Both the position numbers and the translations under genes were made by a program. DNA of 64,000 nucleotides, taken from positions 1 to 64,000 of the forward strand of contig NZ_JADGMY010000011.1 in assembly GCF_015234515.1 (NCBI RefSeq). The letters are read 5' to 3'. Below the pieces are notes generated by a model that saw only the letters and a program-made list of their open reading frames with translations, was not told the origin of the DNA and did not search any database. Positions 29,589 through 39,385 of the stretch are shown one piece after another. Source of the stretch: Cellulomonas sp. Its GTDB lineage: Bacteria > Actinomycetota > Actinomycetes > Actinomycetales > Cellulomonadaceae. Position 1 is the stretch's first letter. The number at the start of each line of letters is the position of its first letter.

Positions 29589-30533
29589 TCAGCGCGGCAC
29601 GACGTTGCGCAGGGGAGTGCCCGCGAGGAAGCGCCCGACGTTGTCGGCGACGAGCGACTCCCAGCCGACCGGGCGGCCGCCTGCCGCGTGCGGGCTGACC
29701 AGGACGCGGGGCTCGTCCCAGAGCGGCGAGGACGCGGGCAGGGGCTCTGTGGCGAACACGTCGAGGGCTGCGCCGGCGATGCCACCGGTCCGCAGCGCGT
29801 CCACGAGCGCGTCCTCGTCCAGCGTGGACCCGCGACCGGCGTTGACGACGAGCGCGCGTCGCGGCAGCAGGCCCAGCACGTCCCGCCCGATGGCGTGGTG
29901 GGTCGTCTCGAGCGCCGGCAGGAGCCCCACGAGCACGTCCGTGCGGGGCAGGACGTCCGGCAGGCCCTGCGGGGTGACGACGGGGAACCCGTACCGGTCC
30001 CCGGCGGTCGTGGCGACGCCCGTGACGTGCGCACCGAGCCCCACGAGCAGCGGCGCGAGGCGCGCGGCGATCGAGCCGAATCCCCAGACCGTGACGTTGG
30101 CGTCGATCAGCGTGGTCACGCGGTCAGAGGTGTGCAGCGGCTGCAGGCCACCCAGCTCGTCCGCCCAGCGGTGACCTGACTGGGCCTGCACCATCGCGGG
30201 CACCGACCGCACGGACGCGAGCAGGAGGGCCAGCACGTGCTCGGCGACCGTTGCGTCATGCAGTCCGCGTCCGTTCGTCACCACCACGTCGGGGGCGAAG
30301 CCCGCGGCGAGCACGGCGTCGGGCCCGGCGGCCAACGTCTGGACCCAGCGGGCGTGCGGTGTCGCCACCGCGAGCTCGGCGAGGCGGTCGGCGGGGTTGC
30401 CCCACACGACGACCGCGTCGGCGTGCGCCGCCTCCGGCGGGGGCGGGGCTGTCACGTCGTAGCGGACGGCGGTGACGCCCGACGGCAGCGTGGGCGCGCC
30501 GTCGACGGTCGTCGGGAGCAGGATCAGGGTCAT
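29589..30533 (-). CDS. D-isomer-specific 2-hydroxyacid dehydrogenase
   Basis: This 314-aa NAD-dependent oxidoreductase has the Rossmann loop VWGFGSIAARLAPLL (about residues 143-157), NAGRGSTLDEDALVDAL with the active-site Arg, and SPHAAGG with the catalytic His. These features mark the D-lactate/glycerate/phosphoglycerate dehydrogenase family, but the substrate is open. ATG 30533 is only 19 bp from the devR GTG on the opposite strand, so the two share a promoter region. Confidence 0.87.
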   Translation of the reverse strand: MTLILLPTTVDGAPTLPSGVTAVRYDVTAPPPPEAAHADAVVVWGNPADRLAELAVATPHARWVQTLAAGPDAVLAAGFAPDVVVTNGRGLHDATVAEHVLALLLASVRSVPAMVQAQSGHRWADELGGLQPLHTSDRVTTLIDANVTVWGFGSIAARLAPLLVGLGAHVTGVATTAGDRYGFPVVTPQGLPDVLPRTDVLVGLLPALETTHHAIGRDVLGLLPRRALVVNAGRGSTLDEDALVDALRTGGIAGAALDVFATEPLPASSPLWDEPRVLVSPHAAGGRPVGWESLVADNVGRFLAGTPLRNVVPR

Positions 30534-30552
30534 GGGTCGATACGATGCCACG
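30534..30552. promoter_or_regulatory. Very short divergent promoter, hydroxyacid dehydrogenase/devR
   Basis: The interval contains TACGAT on the plus strand (30541-30546), six bases before the devR GTG. The overlapping complement reads CATCGT on the minus strand, eight bases before the dehydrogenase ATG. One nearly symmetrical -10 could therefore serve both genes as leaderless transcripts. Confidence 0.45.
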
Positions 30553-31245
30553 GTGTCAGCCACGAGCCAGTCCACGCCGACGCCCCCCGGGGGCGGTCGG
30601 CCAGGGTCCATCTCCGTCATGATCGTCGACGACCACGAGGTCGTCCGCCGCGGGATAGCCGAGGTCGTCGAGCGCACGGACGGCATGACCGTCGTCGCGG
30701 AGGCGGGCTCGGTGGCCGACGGCGTCCGTCGCGCCACGCTGGTGCGGCCCCAGGTGCTGCTGGTGGACCTGCAGCTGCCCGACGGCACGGGCATCGACCT
30801 GATGAAGGCGGTGCGCGAGACGCTGCCCGACGCGCGTGCGATCGTCCTGACGTCGTTCGACGACGACGACGCCCTCGCCCAGGCCCTGGACGCCGGCGCG
30901 GCCGCCTACCTGCTCAAGAGCGTGCGCGGAGCCGAGATCACCGACGTGATCCGCGCCGTGGCCGCCGGACGCACGCTCCTGGACGACCGGACCGTCGCGC
31001 GTCGCCGGGCCGGGCACGAGGACCCCACCGAGTCGCTGACGCCGAGCGAGCTGCGTGTCCTCGACCTGATCGGTGAGGGCATGTCCAACCGCGAGATCGC
31101 CGAGCGGCTGGGCGTCGCGGAGAAGACCGTGAAGAACCACATCACGTCGCTGCTGTCGAAGATGGGGCTGCAGCGCCGCACGCAGGTGGCGGCGTGGGTC
31201 GCGTCGCGCAAGAACTCCGGCTGGCGCGCCGAGCCCGGGCACTGA
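30553..31245 (+). CDS. devR: NarL/DevR-type response regulator
   Basis: This 230-aa regulator has a receiver domain (about residues 20-140; phospho-acceptor Asp72 in VDLQLPDG, acidic pair in IVDDHE, Lys in YLLKS) and a C-terminal LuxR helix-turn-helix (about 170-225, LTPSELRVLDLIGEGMSNREIA). The helix and linker resemble mycobacterial DevR/DosR. It converges with a DevS-like kinase, its presumed partner. GTG 30553 fits the -10 at 30541; ATG 30532 would overlap the neighbour's start. It probably binds the palindrome upstream of cydA. Confidence 0.85.
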   Translation: MSATSQSTPTPPGGGRPGSISVMIVDDHEVVRRGIAEVVERTDGMTVVAEAGSVADGVRRATLVRPQVLLVDLQLPDGTGIDLMKAVRETLPDARAIVLTSFDDDDALAQALDAGAAAYLLKSVRGAEITDVIRAVAAGRTLLDDRTVARRRAGHEDPTESLTPSELRVLDLIGEGMSNREIAERLGVAEKTVKNHITSLLSKMGLQRRTQVAAWVASRKNSGWRAEPGH

Positions 31246-31252
31246 GGTCGCG

Positions 31253-31283
31253 CGGTGTGGTGCACGCGTCGCGCACCACACCG
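31253..31283. terminator. Bidirectional terminator between devR and devS
   Basis: An 11-bp stem (31253-31263 with 31273-31283) separates the stops of two convergent genes. There is no strong T-run on either side. Confidence 0.55.
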
Positions 31284-31300
31284 GCACCGCCGGCGACGGC

Positions 31301-33073
31301 TCAGCCGAGCGGGGCCTGCCAGGTCAGCAGGGAGCCCTTGCCGCTGGGGGCCGCACCCAGGCTGAACGTGCCCCCGTGCTGACGGGCCCGCGACGCGAGG
31401 TTGCCGGTGCCCGAGCTGCGCTCACGCTCTGCCGGCAGGCCCGCACCGTCGTCCTCGACGTCGACCTCGACGGACCCGGTCGGTCCCGAGCCGCGGACCG
31501 CGACGCGCACGCTCACCGACGAGGCGTGCGCGTGCCGGGCGGCATTGGCCAGGCCCTCCCGGACGACCGCGACGACGTCGTCGGTGAGCTCCTGCTCGAG
31601 ACGCTCGTCGATCCGGTCCTCGGCCTCGCCGTCACCGGGTGACAGGTCCTCGCCGTCCAGCGAGAGGACCAGCGACGGCGCGAACCCGAGCCCCGTGCGG
31701 GCCAGCGACGTCTCACGACGCAGCCTCTCGACCAGACCGGTCGCCGCGTCGGGGTCGCGCAGCGCGTAGACGATCTGGCGGATCTCACGCACCGAGCTGT
31801 CGACGTTGTCGAGGGCATCCTCGACGATGCTCATGAGCTCCTGCGGGTCGACGCCCCGGGCCGCACGCCGACGCACCGTCTCCAGCTGCATGCCCGTGGC
31901 GAACAGCTGCTGGATCGCCAGGTCGTGCAGGTCGCGCGCGATGCGCTCGCGCTCGTCGAGCAGCGCGGCGACGTCCTGCGCGTGCCTGGCCTCGGCGAGG
32001 ACGTACGCGAGCGCCGCCTGCGCCGCGAACGACTCGGCGGTCGCGAGGTCGCTCTCGTCGAACGGGATGGCACCGATGCGCCGCATCAGCACCAGGACCC
32101 CCACGCCGCGTCCGGAGGAGTGCAGCGGCGCGAACATCGCCGGCCCGAAGGCACGCATCTCGTCGAGCTTGACGGTGCGGGACGCCGACAGCGACGGCGT
32201 GAGCAGGCCGTGCCCCTCCTCGAGCACGGTCCAGGCACGGCCGCCGCGGGGCATGACCAGGCCGGTGAGCTCCGCGGCGCGGTACCCGTCGGCGAGCTCG
32301 ATGAACAGCTCCCCGCCCATCCCCGGCAGCGCGAGTGCCGCGGTGTCCGCACCCGCGACCTCCCGCGCGGTGCGGGCGACGTGCTCCAGGGCGGACTCCT
32401 CGTCCACGCCCTCCAGGAGCATCGTGGTGATGTCCTGACCGGCACGCAGCCAGTGCTCGCGCCGCTCGGACTCGGCGTACAGCTGCGCGTTGGCGATGGC
32501 CACCCCTGCCGCCGCGGCGAGTGCCAGGACCATGTGCTCGTCCCGGGTGGTGAACGTCCCACCGCCCTGCTTCTCGGACAGGTAGAGCTGGCCGTAGACG
32601 TGCTCGCCCACCTTCACCGACGCGCCGAGGAAGGACCCCATCGGCGGGTGGTGCGCGGGCCAGCCCTGGAACGACGGGTGCTGGGTGAGGTCGTCGAGGC
32701 GCAGGACGCCGTCCACGGGGATCTGCCCGAGCACACCCTGGGCGTGCGGGGGGTGGCGCATCGCCCGCGCGACGGCCGTCGGGACACCCGTGTAGACGAA
32801 CGTGGTGGACGTGCCGGTGTCGTCGAGGACGTTGATGGCCGCGAACCGGGCGGACGTGAGCTCGGCGCTGACCTGGACGAACCGGTCGAGCACGGCCGGC
32901 AGCTCGAGGTGTCCCGCGACCGCCAGCATCGCCCCGAGCAGGTCGGTCAGCGCGTCACCGGTGAGGGGCGCGGGGTCCGGTGCGGTGTCGACGATGACGC
33001 CCCGTTCGAACGGCGCCCCCGCGACCGGCAGCCGTCCGGCGACCTCACGCATCTCGCCTCGGTGCTCGCTCAC
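31301..33073 (-). CDS. devS: DevS/DosT-like GAF sensor histidine kinase
   Basis: This 590-aa cytoplasmic kinase has two GAF domains (about residues 55-200 and 225-365), a HisKA_3 dimerisation domain with phospho-acceptor His383 (ERIARDLHDLAIQQLF) and a HATPase domain (N-box REGLANAARHAH; GTGNLASRARQHGG). In GAF-A the HHPPMGSFLG segment (141-150) aligns with the DevS region carrying the haem-ligating histidine, so a haem-based O2/NO/CO or redox sensor is likely. It has no membrane segments. Its GTG overlaps the cydC stop by 4 bp, making it the last gene of the cydABDC operon. Confidence 0.87.
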   Translation of the reverse strand: MSEHRGEMREVAGRLPVAGAPFERGVIVDTAPDPAPLTGDALTDLLGAMLAVAGHLELPAVLDRFVQVSAELTSARFAAINVLDDTGTSTTFVYTGVPTAVARAMRHPPHAQGVLGQIPVDGVLRLDDLTQHPSFQGWPAHHPPMGSFLGASVKVGEHVYGQLYLSEKQGGGTFTTRDEHMVLALAAAAGVAIANAQLYAESERREHWLRAGQDITTMLLEGVDEESALEHVARTAREVAGADTAALALPGMGGELFIELADGYRAAELTGLVMPRGGRAWTVLEEGHGLLTPSLSASRTVKLDEMRAFGPAMFAPLHSSGRGVGVLVLMRRIGAIPFDESDLATAESFAAQAALAYVLAEARHAQDVAALLDERERIARDLHDLAIQQLFATGMQLETVRRRAARGVDPQELMSIVEDALDNVDSSVREIRQIVYALRDPDAATGLVERLRRETSLARTGLGFAPSLVLSLDGEDLSPGDGEAEDRIDERLEQELTDDVVAVVREGLANAARHAHASSVSVRVAVRGSGPTGSVEVDVEDDGAGLPAERERSSGTGNLASRARQHGGTFSLGAAPSGKGSLLTWQAPLG

Positions 33074-34950
33074 GACGTCTCCTGCTCCTCGGCCTGCACG
33101 GCCTCACCGTAGCCCGGCACGTCCGCCGTCAGGTCCTCGTGGGTGCCGCGCGCCGCCACACGTCCGCCGGCGAGCCACAGCACCTCGTCCGCCGCGGCGA
33201 GCGGCGCGAGGCGGTGGCTGACCACCAGGACGCCGCGCGCGGTGCCGTGCCGCGTCGCCGGTGCGTGCCACAGCTCGTCGAGGACGGCGTCCGCGGTGCG
33301 CGGGTCGAGGTGCTCGGCAGGTTCGTCGACCAGCAGCAGGGGTGCGTCGGACACGAGCGCGCGGGCCAGCAGGAGGCGGCGGCGCTCCCCGCCGGACACA
33401 GTGCGCGCGTCGGACCCGACGACCGTGTCGAGGCCCTCGGGCAGATCGTCGAGCCACGGCCCCAGGCCGACCCGGCGCAGCGCGTCCGTCGCCTCGGCGG
33501 GCGTCACGTCGCCGCGGGCCACGCGCAGGTTCTCCAGGACGGAGGTGCCGAACACGTGGGCGTCCTCGCCCGTCATGACGACGTCGCCCGCCATGTGCCC
33601 GCCGTCCGCGCTCCCGAGGGCGACCCCGTCGAGCGTCACGGTCCCCGCGACGGGAGGCAGCAGACCCGCGAGCGTCAGCAGGAGCGTCGTCTTGCCCTCC
33701 CCGCTGGGTCCGGCGACGGCCAGGCGCCTGCCGGGCGCGAGCGTGAGGTCGACGTCCGTCACAGCCGGCACGCGACCCGGCCAGCCGCAGGCGAGGCCGG
33801 TCGCGACGAGGACCGGGCCTCGGGGGCGGGCGGTCGTGGTGTCGCCGGCGACGGTCGACGGGGTGCTGCTGGACAGGGTGCTGCCGGACGGGGTGCTGCC
33901 GGACGGGGTGCTGCGCACGGCGGTCCTGGGCTGCGCGGGTCCGGCGCTGTCGACGAGGGCCAGGACGCGAGCCGCGGCGGCCCGCGAGCGCTGCACCTGC
34001 ACGGCGGCCGCCGGCAGCAGGGACGTCGCCTCGAAGGCGGCGAGCGGTGTCAGCACGATGACCGCCAGCTCGACCGGGGTGAGCAGACGCGCGGCGACGG
34101 CCGGCACACCGGTCACGAGTGCGGCGACCACGGCCACGCCGACCGCGAGCTGGCCGATGGCCGCCGCGAGCGCCGTGGGCCGAGCGCCGGCGTCCGTCGC
34201 GCGTGCGAGGTCGGTGTCGGCCGCGTGCAGCGCGTCGAGCTCGCCCCGCAACCGACCGGAGACCGCGAGCGGGCCGGCGTCGTCGAGCACACCGAGCGCC
34301 GTCGCGCTCATGCGCGCCCGCGCCTGCACGCCGCGCTCCTCCGCCGTGCGGGCCCCGCGTGCCGCGAGCCACGGCGCGAGGACGCCCGCGGCCAGCAGGC
34401 AGACCGCGAGGGCGAGCCCCGCAGGCGGCCAGAACAGCGCCATGGCGATCGACGTGCCGGTCCCGAGCGTGACCGCCACGGCGGCCGGCAGCAGGCCGCG
34501 GACCACGACGTCGCCGACGGCGTCGACGTCGGCGCCGACGCGCGCGAGCAGGTCACCGCGGCGCACCGAGAGCAGGGCCTGGGGCGACCCGGCGGCGAGG
34601 CGTTCGTAGAGCGTCACCCGCAGGTCGGCCATGCCGCGCAGGGCGATGTCGTGCGACACCAGGCGCTCGAGGTAGCGCATCAGCCCGCGTCCGATGCCGA
34701 AGGTCCGGACCGCGACGGTCGCGACCGACAGCTCGAGGACCGGAGGCATCTGCGAGGCGCGCGCGATGAGCCACGCGGCCACGGCCGCGAGCGCGACCGC
34801 GGACCCGAGCGCGAGGGTCCCGAGCAGGACCGCCAGGGCGGCGCGCCGCGGGTCGACGTCGAGCAGCCGGACGGCGCGTCGCAGCGTGCCGCGAGGCGGA
34901 GGGGCCGGGGCGGCCGCGGCCGGCGCGGGGGACCGCAGGGACGCGCTCAT
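33070..34950 (-). CDS. cydC: Cytochrome bd assembly ABC exporter, subunit CydC
   Basis: This 626-aa half-transporter has an N-terminal six-helix membrane domain and a C-terminal ATPase (Walker A GPSGEGKTT, signature VSGGERRRLLLARAL, Walker B LLLVDEP). CydDC exports thiols such as cysteine/glutathione in E. coli, or maintains a haem or redox state needed for bd oxidase assembly. A Ser/Thr/Pro/Gly linker of about 30 residues between the domains contains the repeat PSGSTPSGST, encoded by a 15-bp tandem repeat. It overlaps cydD and devS by 4 bp each. Confidence 0.9.
   Translation of the reverse strand: MSASLRSPAPAAAAPAPPPRGTLRRAVRLLDVDPRRAALAVLLGTLALGSAVALAAVAAWLIARASQMPPVLELSVATVAVRTFGIGRGLMRYLERLVSHDIALRGMADLRVTLYERLAAGSPQALLSVRRGDLLARVGADVDAVGDVVVRGLLPAAVAVTLGTGTSIAMALFWPPAGLALAVCLLAAGVLAPWLAARGARTAEERGVQARARMSATALGVLDDAGPLAVSGRLRGELDALHAADTDLARATDAGARPTALAAAIGQLAVGVAVVAALVTGVPAVAARLLTPVELAVIVLTPLAAFEATSLLPAAAVQVQRSRAAAARVLALVDSAGPAQPRTAVRSTPSGSTPSGSTLSSSTPSTVAGDTTTARPRGPVLVATGLACGWPGRVPAVTDVDLTLAPGRRLAVAGPSGEGKTTLLLTLAGLLPPVAGTVTLDGVALGSADGGHMAGDVVMTGEDAHVFGTSVLENLRVARGDVTPAEATDALRRVGLGPWLDDLPEGLDTVVGSDARTVSGGERRRLLLARALVSDAPLLLVDEPAEHLDPRTADAVLDELWHAPATRHGTARGVLVVSHRLAPLAAADEVLWLAGGRVAARGTHEDLTADVPGYGEAVQAEEQETS
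33854..33913. repeat. Four-copy 15-bp tandem repeat inside cydC
   Basis: Four 15-bp units (33854, 33869, 33884, 33899) end in GTGCTG; the last two are identical, the first two differ at a few positions. They encode the flexible Ser/Thr-rich linker between the membrane and ATPase domains of CydC. Being a multiple of three, copy-number change would keep the frame. Confidence 0.9.
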
Positions 34951-36638
34951 CGCCGCACCTCGTCGGCGGCGAGGGGTGCGCCGTGGGCTGCGGCGTCAGG
35001 CGCCGACGTGACGTGCACGACGTCGTCCGCGCGGCTCGCGAGCGACTCCCGGTGGGCGACGAGGAGCACGGCGCAGCCGGCGTCACGCAGCGCCTCGAGG
35101 GTCGCGAGCACGACCTGCTCGCCCGCCGCGTCGAGGTGTGCCGTCGGCTCGTCGAGCACGACGACGGGGCTGGGCCGCAGCAGGGCGCGCGTGAGCGCGA
35201 GGCGCTGCCGCTGGCCCACGCTCAGCCCGGTCCCGCCACCGCCCAGCGCCGTTCCCCAGCCGTCCGGGAGCGACGCGACGACCGTGTCGAGACCGGTGAG
35301 CGCGGCCGCGCGGTCGCGCTCCGCACGCGTGGTCGCCCCGAGGACCTCCTCGACCGTCCCCGGCTCCAGCACGGGCCGTTGCGGCAGCCACGTCACCTGA
35401 CGCCAGTAGTCGTGCACGTCGACGTCGGCCAGGTCCGTCGCCGTGCCGTCGGCGGCGACCAGCGCGACGTGCCCCACGTCCGGCGGGAGGAGGCCGAGGA
35501 GCACCTCGACCGTGGTGGACTTCCCCGCCCCCGAGGGTCCGACGAGCGCGACGACACGCCCCGGGACGAGGTCGATGTCCACGGGCGCCGGTGCCCAGCC
35601 GCCCCGGGAGCGCACCGCCACGCCACGCGCGCGCACCGTCCCGCGCGTGAGGTCCGGCGCAGGTCGTGTCCCTGCCTCCGCGACGGGCACCTCCAGCACC
35701 GCGAACGCGCGGTCCGCCGCCGCGACACCGTCGGCCGAGGCGTGGAAGTGCGCGCCGACCTGACGCAGCGGCTGGAAGACCTCGGGTGCGAGCACCAGCA
35801 CGGCGAGCCCGGTGACGAGGTCGACGTGGCCGTAGACGAGCCGCAGGCCGACGCCGACCGCCACGAGCGCGACCGCGAGCGTGGTCAGCAGCTCGAGCAC
35901 CATGCCGGACAGGAAGGCGATCCGCAGGGTGCCCATGGTGGCGCGCCGGTGCGCGTCCCCGAGCTCGCGGACCCGCGCGGCCGGCCCGCGCTCCCGGCCG
36001 AACGCCCGCAGCGTCGACAGGCCGGCGAGCAGGTCGAGCACCTGGGCGCCGAGCCGCTGCATCGTCGCGAGCCCGCGCTCCGAGCGGCCCTGCGTCATGA
36101 CGCCCACGAGCCACATGAACAGTGGCACCAGCGGCACGGTGCCGGCCAGGATCGCGGCCGAGACCCAGTCCAGACCGAGCACGACGAGCAGCGTCGCGGG
36201 GGTCAGCGTGGCGGCGAGCACGAGCTGCGGCAGGTACCGCACGAAGTACGGCTCGAGGGCGTCGAGGCCGCGTGTCGCCAGCGTCACGAGGCCGGCGCCG
36301 TCGGCGGGCGCGGCGCGCCGGGGACCGACGGCCGCGGCGTGCGCGACCACACGCTCGCGGAGCTCGGCGACGGCCCGCGTCGCGGAACGGTGCGCGTAGC
36401 GCTCCTGGACGCCGGCGGTCAGCGCGCGGAGCACGACGACGACGACGAGCCAGCCCGCCAGCGGGGCGACCTGCGCGAGCGAGGCCCCGTCGGCGACGGC
36501 CGATCCCAGCGCGTGCGCGAGGAGCAGCGCCTGCGCCACGACGAGCGCGCCGGTGAGCAGGCCGAGCGCGACCGTCAGGGCGAGGTACCCGCGTGCGGAC
36601 CGCGCGTACCGCAGGAGCCGGGGATCGAGAGGCTTCAC
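34947..36638 (-). CDS. cydD: Cytochrome bd assembly ABC exporter, subunit CydD
   Basis: This 563-aa half-transporter is the CydC partner. It has six predicted transmembrane helices, Walker A GPSGAGKST, signature LSVGQRQRLALTRAL and Walker B VVVLDEPTAHLD. The N-terminus MKPLDPRLLRYARSARGYL is typical of actinobacterial CydD. It overlaps cydC by 4 bp and starts 19 bp after cydB, so the four cyd genes form one transcript in the order A-B-D-C. Confidence 0.9.
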   Translation of the reverse strand: MKPLDPRLLRYARSARGYLALTVALGLLTGALVVAQALLLAHALGSAVADGASLAQVAPLAGWLVVVVVLRALTAGVQERYAHRSATRAVAELRERVVAHAAAVGPRRAAPADGAGLVTLATRGLDALEPYFVRYLPQLVLAATLTPATLLVVLGLDWVSAAILAGTVPLVPLFMWLVGVMTQGRSERGLATMQRLGAQVLDLLAGLSTLRAFGRERGPAARVRELGDAHRRATMGTLRIAFLSGMVLELLTTLAVALVAVGVGLRLVYGHVDLVTGLAVLVLAPEVFQPLRQVGAHFHASADGVAAADRAFAVLEVPVAEAGTRPAPDLTRGTVRARGVAVRSRGGWAPAPVDIDLVPGRVVALVGPSGAGKSTTVEVLLGLLPPDVGHVALVAADGTATDLADVDVHDYWRQVTWLPQRPVLEPGTVEEVLGATTRAERDRAAALTGLDTVVASLPDGWGTALGGGGTGLSVGQRQRLALTRALLRPSPVVVLDEPTAHLDAAGEQVVLATLEALRDAGCAVLLVAHRESLASRADDVVHVTSAPDAAAHGAPLAADEVRR

Positions 36639-36657
36639 GCCGTCCAGCAGACCACGG

Positions 36658-37707
36658 TCAGGACCGCGAGACGACGCGGGCGAAGGTCAGGCCGGTCGCC
36701 TCGGGGATGTGCTCGATCGTCAGGCGCTTGCGGAAGACCCAGTAGGTCCAGCCCTGGTAGAGCAGCACGACCGGGGTGAGGATCGCGGCGACCCACGTCA
36801 TGACGGTCAGCGTGTAGTCGGTGGACGAGGCGTTGTCGACCGTCAGGGAGTTCGCGGGGTCGAACGCGGGCATGACGTCGGGGAACATCGAGCCGAAGAT
36901 CAGCACGACCGCGGCGACGATGGCGACGGCCGACGCGGCGAACGCGACGCCCTCACGACGCAGCCGGGTGGCGGCGACGACCAGGACGAGCGCAGCGGCG
37001 GCGACCAGCACGGCCGCCCACGTCCAGCCCTTGCCGCTGTACGCCAGCTGGGCCCACACGGCCCACACGCCGGCGACGACGAGGGTCACGACGGAGCTGC
37101 GTGCGGCGAACGCCCCGGCGCGCTCACGCATCTCGCCGTCGACCTTCATCGCCAGGAAGACCGCACCGTGGGTGAGGAAGATGCTGAGCGTCACGACCCC
37201 GCCGAGCAGGGCGAACGGGGACAGCAGCGCGAAGAAGCCACCGACGTACTGGTGGTTCGCGTCGAGCTCGACACCCCGCACCAGGTTGGCGAACGCGACG
37301 CCCCAGAGCAGTGCGGGGAGGAACGAGCCGAAGATCAGCGCGCGGTCCGCCCAGCCCCGCCAGACGTGGGAGTCGATCTTGCCGCGCCACTCGAACGCGA
37401 CGACGCGCACGATGAGGGCGATGAGGATGAGGAACAGCGGGAGGTAGAAGCCGGAGAACAGCGTGGCGTACCACTCGGGGAAGGCCGCGAAGGTCGCGCC
37501 GCCCGCGGTCAGGAGCCACACCTCGTTGCCGTCCCAGACGGGACCGATGGTGTTGATCATCAGCCGGCGCTCCTTCTCCCGGCGGGCCTTGTCGCCCCGG
37601 GGCAGGATCGCGAGCAGCATGCCGACACCGAAGTCGAACCCCTCGAGCACGAGGTAGCCGGTCCAGAGCACGGCGATGAGGAGGAACCAGACGACGGGGA
37701 GGTCCAT
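36658..37707 (-). CDS. cydB: Cytochrome bd ubiquinol/menaquinol oxidase, subunit II
   Basis: This 349-aa integral membrane protein has eight to nine hydrophobic helices and the subunit II motifs GFDFGVGMLL and GPVWDGNEVWLLTAGG. It pairs with CydA to form the high-affinity terminal oxidase and stabilises haem binding. It starts 10 bp after the cydA stop, in the same operon. Confidence 0.96.
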   Translation of the reverse strand: MDLPVVWFLLIAVLWTGYLVLEGFDFGVGMLLAILPRGDKARREKERRLMINTIGPVWDGNEVWLLTAGGATFAAFPEWYATLFSGFYLPLFLILIALIVRVVAFEWRGKIDSHVWRGWADRALIFGSFLPALLWGVAFANLVRGVELDANHQYVGGFFALLSPFALLGGVVTLSIFLTHGAVFLAMKVDGEMRERAGAFAARSSVVTLVVAGVWAVWAQLAYSGKGWTWAAVLVAAAALVLVVAATRLRREGVAFAASAVAIVAAVVLIFGSMFPDVMPAFDPANSLTVDNASSTDYTLTVMTWVAAILTPVVLLYQGWTYWVFRKRLTIEHIPEATGLTFARVVSRS

Positions 37708-37717
37708 GGCGGGCTCC

Positions 37718-39241
37718 TCAGTAGGCGAAGGACAGCGGACGGTCGATGCCGTCGGTGTCGTCGGCGGGTGGGTTGGCCTCGGGGCTGGGGTCGTGCTCGG
37801 TGTCCGCGACGCCCTCGACGGCGTACCGCTTCATCAGCCGGAACCAGACCACCATGAGCACGCCGTACAGCAGCGTGAAGCCGATCATCGAGAACAGGAC
37901 CATGCCGGGGCTCACGACCTCGCTGACGCCGCGTGCGGTCAGCAGCCACACGCCGTCGACGCCGGACGCGTCCGGGTTGGGGGCGACCACCCACGGCTGA
38001 CGGCCCATCTCGGTGAAGATCCAGCCGAACGCGGACGCGAGGAACGGTGTGGCGATGGCCGCGAGCCCGAGCCGCCCGAACCACACGTTGCCGGTGACGG
38101 AGCCCTTGCGGCGCAGCAGCCACAGCGCGGCGAGGGACAGGGCGGCCGAGCCGGCGCCGAACCCGATCATCAGGCGGAAGGACCAGTAGGTCACCGCGAG
38201 GTTCGGGTAGAAGCGCGTGTCCTCGTCGATGCCGGACGAGACGCCGTTGGCCTCGTCCCACTCGGTGATCCAGTCCCGGTACTGCTCCTGCAGCTCGTTC
38301 ACGCCGCGGATGGGTGCGTCGAAGTCGTTCGTCGCGAGGAACGAGGTGAGGCCGGGGACCTCGAGGAGGTGCCGCACGCCCTCGCAGTCGTTCGTGAAGT
38401 CGCCGATCGCCAGGATCGAGAACGGTGCACCCTCCTGCGAGACGCACAGGCCCTCGGCTGCGGCCATCTTGGCGGGCTGCTGCTGGAACATGAGCTTGGC
38501 CTGCCAGTCGCCGGACAGTGCGACGCCGGCGCCGGAGACGAGCATCGTGACCAGCCCGAGGACGACCGCCGGCCGGTAGACGTCGCGCGCCTTGTCGACC
38601 TGGCCCGAGCGCACCAGGCGCACCATCCACCAGGCGGCGATGCCCGCGACGAACGTGCCGGCGGTGAGGAACGCGGCCGCGATCGTGTGCGGGAACGCGG
38701 CCAGGAGCGTCGGGTTGGTGAGGACCGCGACGATGTCGGTCATCTCCGCACGGCCGGACTCCATGTTGAAGGTGGTGCCCACCGGGTGCTGCATCCACGA
38801 GTTCGCCGCGAGGATGAAGTAGGCCGAGAGGTTGGTCGCGATCGCCACCGCCCAGATGCACGCGAGGTGGATCTTCTTGGGCAGCTTGTCCCAGCCGAAG
38901 ATCCACAGGCCCAGGAACGTCGACTCGACGAAGAACGCGGCGAGCGCCTCCATGGCCAGCGGCGCCCCGAAGACGTCACCGACGAATCGCGAGTACTCGG
39001 ACCAGTTCATGCCGAACTGGAACTCCTGCACGATCCCGGTGGCGACGCCGATCGCGAAGTTGATCAGCAGGAGCTTGCCGAAGAACTTCGTCAGCCGCAG
39101 CCAGCGCTCGTTGCCCGTGCGGACCCAGGCGGTCTGCATGATGGCGACGAGCGGCGACAGCCCGATCGTCAGGGGGACGAAGATGAAGTGGTAGACGGTC
39201 GTGATGCCGAACTGCCAGCGGGCCAGGTCGAGGGCGTCCAC
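37718..39241 (-). CDS. cydA: Cytochrome bd oxidase, subunit I
   Basis: This 507-aa subunit carries haems b558, b595 and d and oxidises quinol while reducing O2 to water. His18 in VYHFIFVPLTIG corresponds to E. coli His19, and a His in AAFPHTIAAAF to His186; GRQPWVV is the C-terminal signature. The quinol loop is of the shorter type. GTG 39241 is chosen because the protein then begins MDALDLARWQFG; a longer frame to 39316 lies in the leader. It is the first gene of the cyd-devS operon and has a DevR-like operator upstream. Confidence 0.96.
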   Translation of the reverse strand: MDALDLARWQFGITTVYHFIFVPLTIGLSPLVAIMQTAWVRTGNERWLRLTKFFGKLLLINFAIGVATGIVQEFQFGMNWSEYSRFVGDVFGAPLAMEALAAFFVESTFLGLWIFGWDKLPKKIHLACIWAVAIATNLSAYFILAANSWMQHPVGTTFNMESGRAEMTDIVAVLTNPTLLAAFPHTIAAAFLTAGTFVAGIAAWWMVRLVRSGQVDKARDVYRPAVVLGLVTMLVSGAGVALSGDWQAKLMFQQQPAKMAAAEGLCVSQEGAPFSILAIGDFTNDCEGVRHLLEVPGLTSFLATNDFDAPIRGVNELQEQYRDWITEWDEANGVSSGIDEDTRFYPNLAVTYWSFRLMIGFGAGSAALSLAALWLLRRKGSVTGNVWFGRLGLAAIATPFLASAFGWIFTEMGRQPWVVAPNPDASGVDGVWLLTARGVSEVVSPGMVLFSMIGFTLLYGVLMVVWFRLMKRYAVEGVADTEHDPSPEANPPADDTDGIDRPLSFAY

Positions 39242-39340
39242 GGGAGTCTCCGGGCGTGTGCGAGGGCGGGTCGTGCTGCCGGACGGGTCGCGGCGTGCGC
39301 CGCAGCGGGCGCGCACCTCGGGTGCACGTCCTTCAACGAA

Positions 39341-39346
39341 ACGCTA
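39341..39346 (-). promoter_or_regulatory. cydA -10 element
   Basis: TAGCGT on the minus strand (39346-39341) places the transcription start near 39334 and gives a leader of roughly 92 nt before cydA. No consensus -35 is visible, as expected for an activator-dependent promoter. Confidence 0.5.
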
Positions 39347-39368
39347 GGACGAGCGTGTGCGGGCGAGG

Positions 39369-39382
39369 GGGACGAAGGTCCC
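39369..39382. promoter_or_regulatory. DevR/DosR-like operator upstream of cydA
   Basis: GGGAC-GAAG-GTCCC is a perfect 5+5 dyad with the core spacing of the mycobacterial DosR box (GGGACT-WW-AGTCCC). Its centre (39375.5) lies about 41.5 bp upstream of the predicted cydA start site, the usual position for a class II activator. The outer AT-rich positions of the mycobacterial consensus are G/A here. The devR and devS genes next door make the assignment plausible. Confidence 0.65.
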
Positions 39383-39385
39383 GGG

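Follow-up and report, generated by a model that had tools for sequence, protein, structure and literature searches.

A cytochrome bd operon of Cellulomonas with its own DevS-like sensor kinase, probably activated through a DevR-type site

The DNA analysed here is a stretch of 64,000 nucleotides (the window; assembly GCF_015234515.1, contig NZ_JADGMY010000011.1) from a genome of 4.21 Mb and Cellulomonas type, whose closest named loci are those of Cellulomonas avistercoris, Cellulomonas phragmiteti, Cellulomonas sp. KH9 and Cellulomonas composti. Between positions 30553 and 39385 it contains a cytochrome bd oxidase operon, a gene for a DevS/DosT-like sensor kinase and a convergent gene for a DevR-like response regulator. 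Comparison with relatives makes it likely that the bd-oxidase operon carries its own sensor and is activated through a DevR-type site by the convergent regulator, and a DevR-like regulator dedicated to this operon would thus probably induce bd oxidase and sensor kinase jointly. The first-pass annotation had described a self-contained gas-sensing circuit in this region; that observation is confirmed and goes beyond chance, and its core prediction receives strong comparative support.

The identity of all four cyd genes is without doubt (Pfam, NCBIfam). On the minus strand, cydA (37718..39241; cytochrome bd subunit I, PF01654, E 4.7e-162), cydB (36658..37707; subunit II, PF02322, with TIGR00203 over cut-off) and the genes for the two ABC exporter subunits, cydD (34947..36638; TIGR02857 over cut-off) and cydC (33070..34950; TIGR02868 over cut-off), are followed by the kinase gene (31301..33073); the first two junctions leave 10 and 19 nt between genes, and the last two are overlaps of 4 nt. 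The cydA start is the GTG at 39241, which gives the N-terminus MDALDLARWQ and whose position is conserved across relatives. As had been proposed, the kinase GTG overlaps the cydC stop, here by 4 nt. Among 58 loci, the closest in-frame kinase start shows a 4-nt overlap with the cydC stop in 23 cases and an 8-nt overlap in 9 (32/58 together). The single-transcript layout claimed in the first-pass annotation is borne out by this spacing and by the comparison of relatives, which supports cydABDC and the kinase gene as one predicted transcription unit. Scans for sigma-70 promoters and terminators between 30300 and 39500 returned no matches, as in shuffles.

The predicted activator site is a DevR-type dyad with exact palindromic half-sites, GGGACCTTCGTCCC, at 39369..39382 on the minus strand. 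Sites of the GGGAC...GTCCC type upstream of the target are found with DevR/DosR regulators, and this palindrome matches the DosR core. The window has no other exact GGGAC-N4-GTCCC; with up to one mismatch, however, four matches occur versus ten expected in shuffles, so that the motif alone is not significant there and the weight of the dyad comes from its position and conservation. TAGCGT (39341..39346, minus strand) starts 22 bp after the dyad and follows the TANNNT rule for -10 boxes, which places the predicted transcription start at about 39334 and the dyad centre at about -41.5. The distance of about 41.5 bp that the first-pass annotation had given between the dyad and the predicted cydA start therefore agrees with the transcription start predicted from TAGCGT, but not with the start codon, which lies 134 bp from the dyad centre. 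Across 33 promoters of all families with a spacing of 22 bp, information content is highest over the half-sites, including some of the centre, and again at TANNNT, and the same profile contains no conserved -35 box. Because the dyad and the -10 box are conserved and the -35 box is not, the cydA promoter has the appearance of an activator-dependent promoter in which the predicted site would overlap the -35 region.

Within the Cellulomonadaceae, 61 genomes (including G030, with only a distant CydA) and four named Cellulomonas loci were compared. Loci were called linked where the kinase gene lies 3' of cydC, giving 32 linked and 33 unlinked loci; G001, G022 and G072 were set as linked through a cydC-kinase junction on another contig, G001 and G022 being the split-contig loci of the family. 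A dyad with up to two mismatches, followed by TANNNT at any of the four spacings from 22 to 25 bp, was present upstream of cydA at 31 of the 32 linked versus 1 of the 33 unlinked loci (dinucleotide shuffles, 0.3%), and at the linked loci other than G020 TANNNT lies 22-24 bp after the dyad. The best dyad was exact at 12 of the 20 linked loci whose kinases have two GAF domains (6 with one mismatch, 2 with two), at 9 of the 10 with short kinases (the tenth with one mismatch) and at one of the two split-contig loci (the other with one mismatch); at the 33 unlinked loci, 2 were exact, and 6, 9, 15 and 1 had one, two, three and four mismatches.

A Rex operator (TTGTGAA-N4-TTCACAA, up to three mismatches in 14 positions, within 300 bp upstream of cydA) was found at 27 of the 33 unlinked loci versus none of the 32 linked loci, the window included, while 6 of 2100 mononucleotide shuffles matched. 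The Rex-type DNA-binding domain PF06971 exceeded its cut-off in 30 of 33 unlinked genomes and in 20 of the 28 linked genomes sampled, among them the source genome, which means that in most linked genomes it is the Rex operator that is missing and not the Rex protein. In G011 and G032 an exact dyad coexists with a Rex operator, and the spaced -10 box is missing. The Fisher values for the two family associations, 3e-16 and 9e-13, overstate their strength, since loci of one family are not independent. In the CydAB tree, the linkage label changes 11 times over 105 loci, at least 10 of these by well-supported branches, though this is a tree of CydAB and not of species, and the draft and split loci (G071, G148, G112 and G166) are counted as unlinked, the drafts inflating the number of changes. 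The single linked family locus without the promoter site is that of G020 (L146), where the kinase has Ala at the position of the haem His and the regulator lies on a long branch, and the circuit looks as if it were decaying; a separate DevR-like pair (L243) and an additional CydA, 46% identical, are encoded in this genome as well.

It is very improbable that the dyad is bound by a different palindrome-binding factor and that its link to the kinase is coincidental. In favour of such a factor, the genome contains 27 exact dyads, of which, apart from that at cydA, 19 are intergenic and 7 lie inside called genes, and TANNNT at 20-26 bp from an exact dyad occurs genome-wide at cydA and one other site (L018) only. 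The near-perfect association of the site with linked kinase and regulator in the family argues against it, as does the match of the dyad to the DosR core. The dyad also matches the palindrome type of OsdR (PMC5069765). As a general regulon marker the dyad was rejected, since about 50 oriented sites make one spaced -10 match near chance. The reversed-pattern control in G000 (27 versus 7) is weak because codon composition differs, and dyad counts, judged by eye, do not clearly separate genomes with a linked regulator from those without.

The regulator gene (30553..31245, plus strand, starting with GTG at 30553) is convergent to the kinase gene, as the coordinates confirm, and 55 bp separate its end from the kinase stop. 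Its product combines a NarL-type receiver (Response_reg) with a GerE domain, as in DevR/DosR regulators, and has DevR as its best PDB match (3c3w, E 4.7e-51); the DNA-recognition stretch EKTVKN is conserved in 54 of 54 regulators from cyd loci, the window included. Among the best 6 of 13 matches in the genome it is the sole one of its kind, the other five being 38-40% identical. A tree of 88 regulators, rooted at the midpoint without an outgroup and containing some long branches, divides with support of 100/100 into 59 rows, comprising 56 regulators from cyd loci with a linked or nearby kinase and those of G123, G047 and G005, whose pairs lie elsewhere, and 29 rows, comprising M. tuberculosis DevR and separately located DevR-like regulators. 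The cyd-linked regulators thus group in a clade of their own, separate from M. tuberculosis DevR, and the regulator, which the first-pass annotation had treated as the counterpart of DosR, is not its orthologue. Given this split, it probably acts like DevR on a DevR-type site without being a DevR orthologue. Dyads with up to one mismatch also occur near many separate DevR-like pairs, an observation made without a chance control.

A possible -10 box of the regulator gene, TACGAT (30541..30546, plus strand), lies 6 bp before the GTG. A -10 box close before the start codon goes with a leaderless transcript, which suggests that the regulator transcript is leaderless. Autoregulation through a consensus site was rejected, as a dyad with up to one mismatch was found within about 400 bp upstream of the regulator gene at 0 of 52 loci. 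A gene for a 2-hydroxyacid dehydrogenase (likely ATG at 30533) is divergent from the regulator gene, with about 20 bp between the two.

The kinase (590 aa) has the GAF-GAF-HisKA_3-HATPase architecture of the DevS/DosT haem sensor kinases (GAF_2, GAF, HisKA_3 and HATPase_c in the domain search). Its first GAF domain, GAF-A (32492..32905, minus strand), a putative haem domain, matches DosT (2vzw, E 1.7e-30) and DevS (2w3d, E 1.2e-29) in PDB. The HHPPM stretch noted in the first-pass annotation is indeed retained in GAF-A, and so is the distal Tyr. His142 (codon 32648-32650) and Tyr164 (codon 32582-32584) are in register with the proximal haem His and the distal Tyr, respectively, of DevS and DosT. 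Among the kinases near cyd genes, the phosphoacceptor His is present in 60 of 61, and the haem His and the distal Tyr are both present in 42 of the 50 with two GAF domains, the window kinase among them. With the signature of the haem pocket intact, haem sensing is the more likely, and a plausible, reading for the window kinase.

A search of relatives for the same gene order, which the first-pass annotation had proposed, showed that the arrangement is no local oddity. The loci of the type strains of C. composti (L005) and C. phragmiteti (L003) have this order too. A kinase match at E <= 1e-60 was obtained in 62 of 119 genomes sampled from the order. In at least 33 of the 119 (4 of the family and 29 of other families, at least 8 of the 20 families in all), the kinase gene follows the cyd genes at a short distance on their 3' side, on one contig and in one orientation with them. 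In the other families, where linked loci were chosen by how far the kinase lies from cydB, before promoters were inspected, the spaced site was found at 20 of 30 linked loci, and at both draft loci (G071, G148) and both split loci (G112, G166), which were scored apart.

What weighs against activation of the operon by its own sensor and the convergent regulator comes from the promoters of these other families, from the input domains of the kinases and from a second kinase in the genome. In the other families the spaced site is lacking at 10 of the 30 linked loci and present at 5 of 6 unlinked loci, the latter hand-picked from about 70 genomes that have a cydB match but lack a kinase nearby, so that site and linkage are not tied outside the Cellulomonadaceae. 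Seven of the 10 misses fall in one family (f3), in which G150, G137, G109 and G062 have dyad-like sequences at a distance of about 200 bp from the start codon. The sites at the unlinked loci could point to a position effect, in which the kinase merely rides in the operon, its amount is not limiting and no useful feedback arises; the persistence of site and regulator where the pair lies elsewhere, as in G123, fits this as well. We regard such an effect as unlikely, as linkage occurs in 8 families and overlaps of 4 or 8 nt are recurrent. G123 (L229, L255) belongs to another family, and its CydAB groups inside the Cellulomonadaceae beside G050, with dyad and -10 box present, which looks like a transfer of the cyd operon. 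In G160 (L211), one of the at least 33 genomes counted above, a more divergent DevS-like kinase comes immediately after cydAB, with no cydDC between, and an exact dyad lies 43 bp before cydA.

With respect to the input, the haem His is lost in 8 of the 50 two-GAF kinases near cyd genes, and GAF-A is absent from 11 of the 61 (L150, L155, L156, L168, L173, L174, L176-L179 and L210), in which GAF-B and the kinase core are intact. The promoter dyad is nevertheless present at all ten Cellulomonadaceae loci with GAF-A-less kinases. As these loci keep the promoter site while GAF-A is lost, the output of the circuit is, on this comparison, conserved and its input is not, and haem sensing is not a fixed property of the cyd-linked circuit. 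The haem-based gas sensing claimed in the first-pass annotation is thus supported by the residues of the window kinase and not by conservation across the circuit. A possible, though less likely, alternative is that the circuit is real and responds to something other than a haem-bound gas, with GAF-B or the redox state as the shared input and the haem of GAF-A as an option. Besides these losses, it would accord with the GAF-B stretch (32006..32404 on the minus strand in the window kinase), which is retained even where GAF-A is missing and is alignable in all 61 kinases, and with the Rex operator, and hence NADH/NAD+, at the same gene in related genera. The retention of haem His and Tyr in most two-GAF kinases, including that of the window, speaks against it, and in the alignment of kinases near cyd genes no Cys or His of the window GAF-B is widely conserved; for this reason a GAF-B Cys or His was rejected as redox or haem ligand.

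The second kinase is an orphan DevS-like protein encoded at C23:611039-612691, 51% identical to that of the operon, which could be the main partner of the regulator. It has the haem His and Tyr, and an exact dyad lies about 60 bp upstream (span C23:610966-612691; L034, 6001-7732), where it would overlap the orphan kinase's own promoter. The regulator might then control cyd mainly through this orphan, with the in-operon kinase as a minor or phosphatase partner, much as the two kinases DevS and DosT signal to one regulator in M. tuberculosis (PMC3029386). We consider this quite unlikely, since at E <= 1e-60 only 5 of the 61 family genomes (G000, G013, G047, G050 and G053) yield two or more kinase matches, and most linked genomes must therefore make do with the in-operon kinase. 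The second kinase of G013 (L268) has a dyad 75 bp upstream, and that of G050 (L267) has no dyad close by.

Under the preferred reading, in which the operon-borne kinase acts through the convergent regulator, a drop in oxygen (or nitric oxide, carbon monoxide or a reduced state) would reach the DevS-like kinase, which would phosphorylate the regulator. A dimer of the phosphorylated regulator would bind GGGACCTTCGTCCC at about -41.5 and recruit RNA polymerase to the promoter, which has a -10 box and no conserved -35 box. The resulting transcript would supply bd oxidase, its assembly exporter CydDC and additional kinase; the regulator would be supplied from its own separate promoter. Because the regulator gene lacks the dyad and has a leaderless-type promoter, positive feedback would act on the sensor and not on the regulator. 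The feed-forward loop of the first-pass annotation is thus consistent with a single predicted unit, a site in activator position and a kinase under the same promoter, but the feedback would be confined to the kinase. If the signal is oxygen, more bd oxidase would lower oxygen further and sharpen the switch; if the kinase instead responds to the quinol or NADH state, the activity of bd oxidase would close a negative loop. We lean, with modest confidence, toward the broader view of a cyd-dedicated two-component lineage of this bacterial order, apart from DosR, with the kinase in the operon, an output that is largely fixed and an input that is exchangeable (GAF-A kept, disarmed or deleted), which has been swapped with Rex in the control of cytochrome bd within the Cellulomonadaceae.

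DevRS-type systems are known for dormancy; here such a system would be wired directly to a high-affinity oxidase, as a sensor-carrying operon, in several families. The system is widespread, and we infer haem sensing and activation from sequence. Relatives in which the haem domain is present, disarmed or deleted with the same predicted output offer a route to what GAF-A and GAF-B each sense, and the exchange of Rex and a DevR-type regulator at one promoter would be a clean case of regulator replacement, likely of a direct gas signal versus a redox signal. Like the DevR-DevS/DosT system of M. tuberculosis, the Cellulomonas circuit has a HisKA_3 kinase with two GAF domains in which haem His and distal Tyr are present, a NarL-type regulator with EKTVKN and a GGGAC-type palindrome at the -35 region, and the geometry of the dyad is the same as that of the start-proximal DevR site of M. 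tuberculosis, which overlaps the -35 element (PMC3029386). Unlike in the mycobacterial system, the kinase is a gene of the cyd operon and the regulator belongs to a separate clade; in M. smegmatis, a devR mutant leaves cydA induction unchanged (authors' data not shown) and cydAB lies outside the DevR regulon (PMC7739888).

Other known systems share single features with this circuit. OsdK-OsdR of Streptomyces coelicolor is likewise a DevRS-type pair with a palindromic site, AGGGCCGATCGGCCCT, but osdR-osdK form their own operon (PMC5069765), and the main text of that paper contains no words beginning with cyd or cytochrome. Rex, which controls the cydAB promoter of Streptomyces under limited respiration (PMC7739888), shares the control of this promoter, but is a repressor reading NADH/NAD+, with its operator at cydA in 27 of the 33 unlinked relatives and at none of the 32 linked loci. 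In Corynebacterium glutamicum, where cyd is controlled by HrrSA, SigC and OxyR, the two-component system HrrSA binds upstream of cydABDC and activates cydAB (PMC7337898); unlike the system described here, it has a membrane-embedded, haem-responsive kinase and more than 200 genomic targets, and it is not described as a member of the cyd operon in the available part of that paper. Mycobacterial cydAB is controlled by Crp and SenX3-RegX3, linked to oxygen or respiration (PMC7719681), which are different regulators and are not placed in the cyd operon in the available part of that source. Among the titles and abstract beginnings listed, no paper describing a cyd operon with a DevS-like kinase was found, although this does not prove its absence from the literature. 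Elsewhere in the genome, at sites without a spaced -10 box (L041, L042, L027, L026, L036 and L039), exact dyads lie upstream of genes that, judged from their translations alone, resemble those for acetyl-CoA synthetase, thiolases, succinate dehydrogenase, AdhE and succinyl-CoA ligase.

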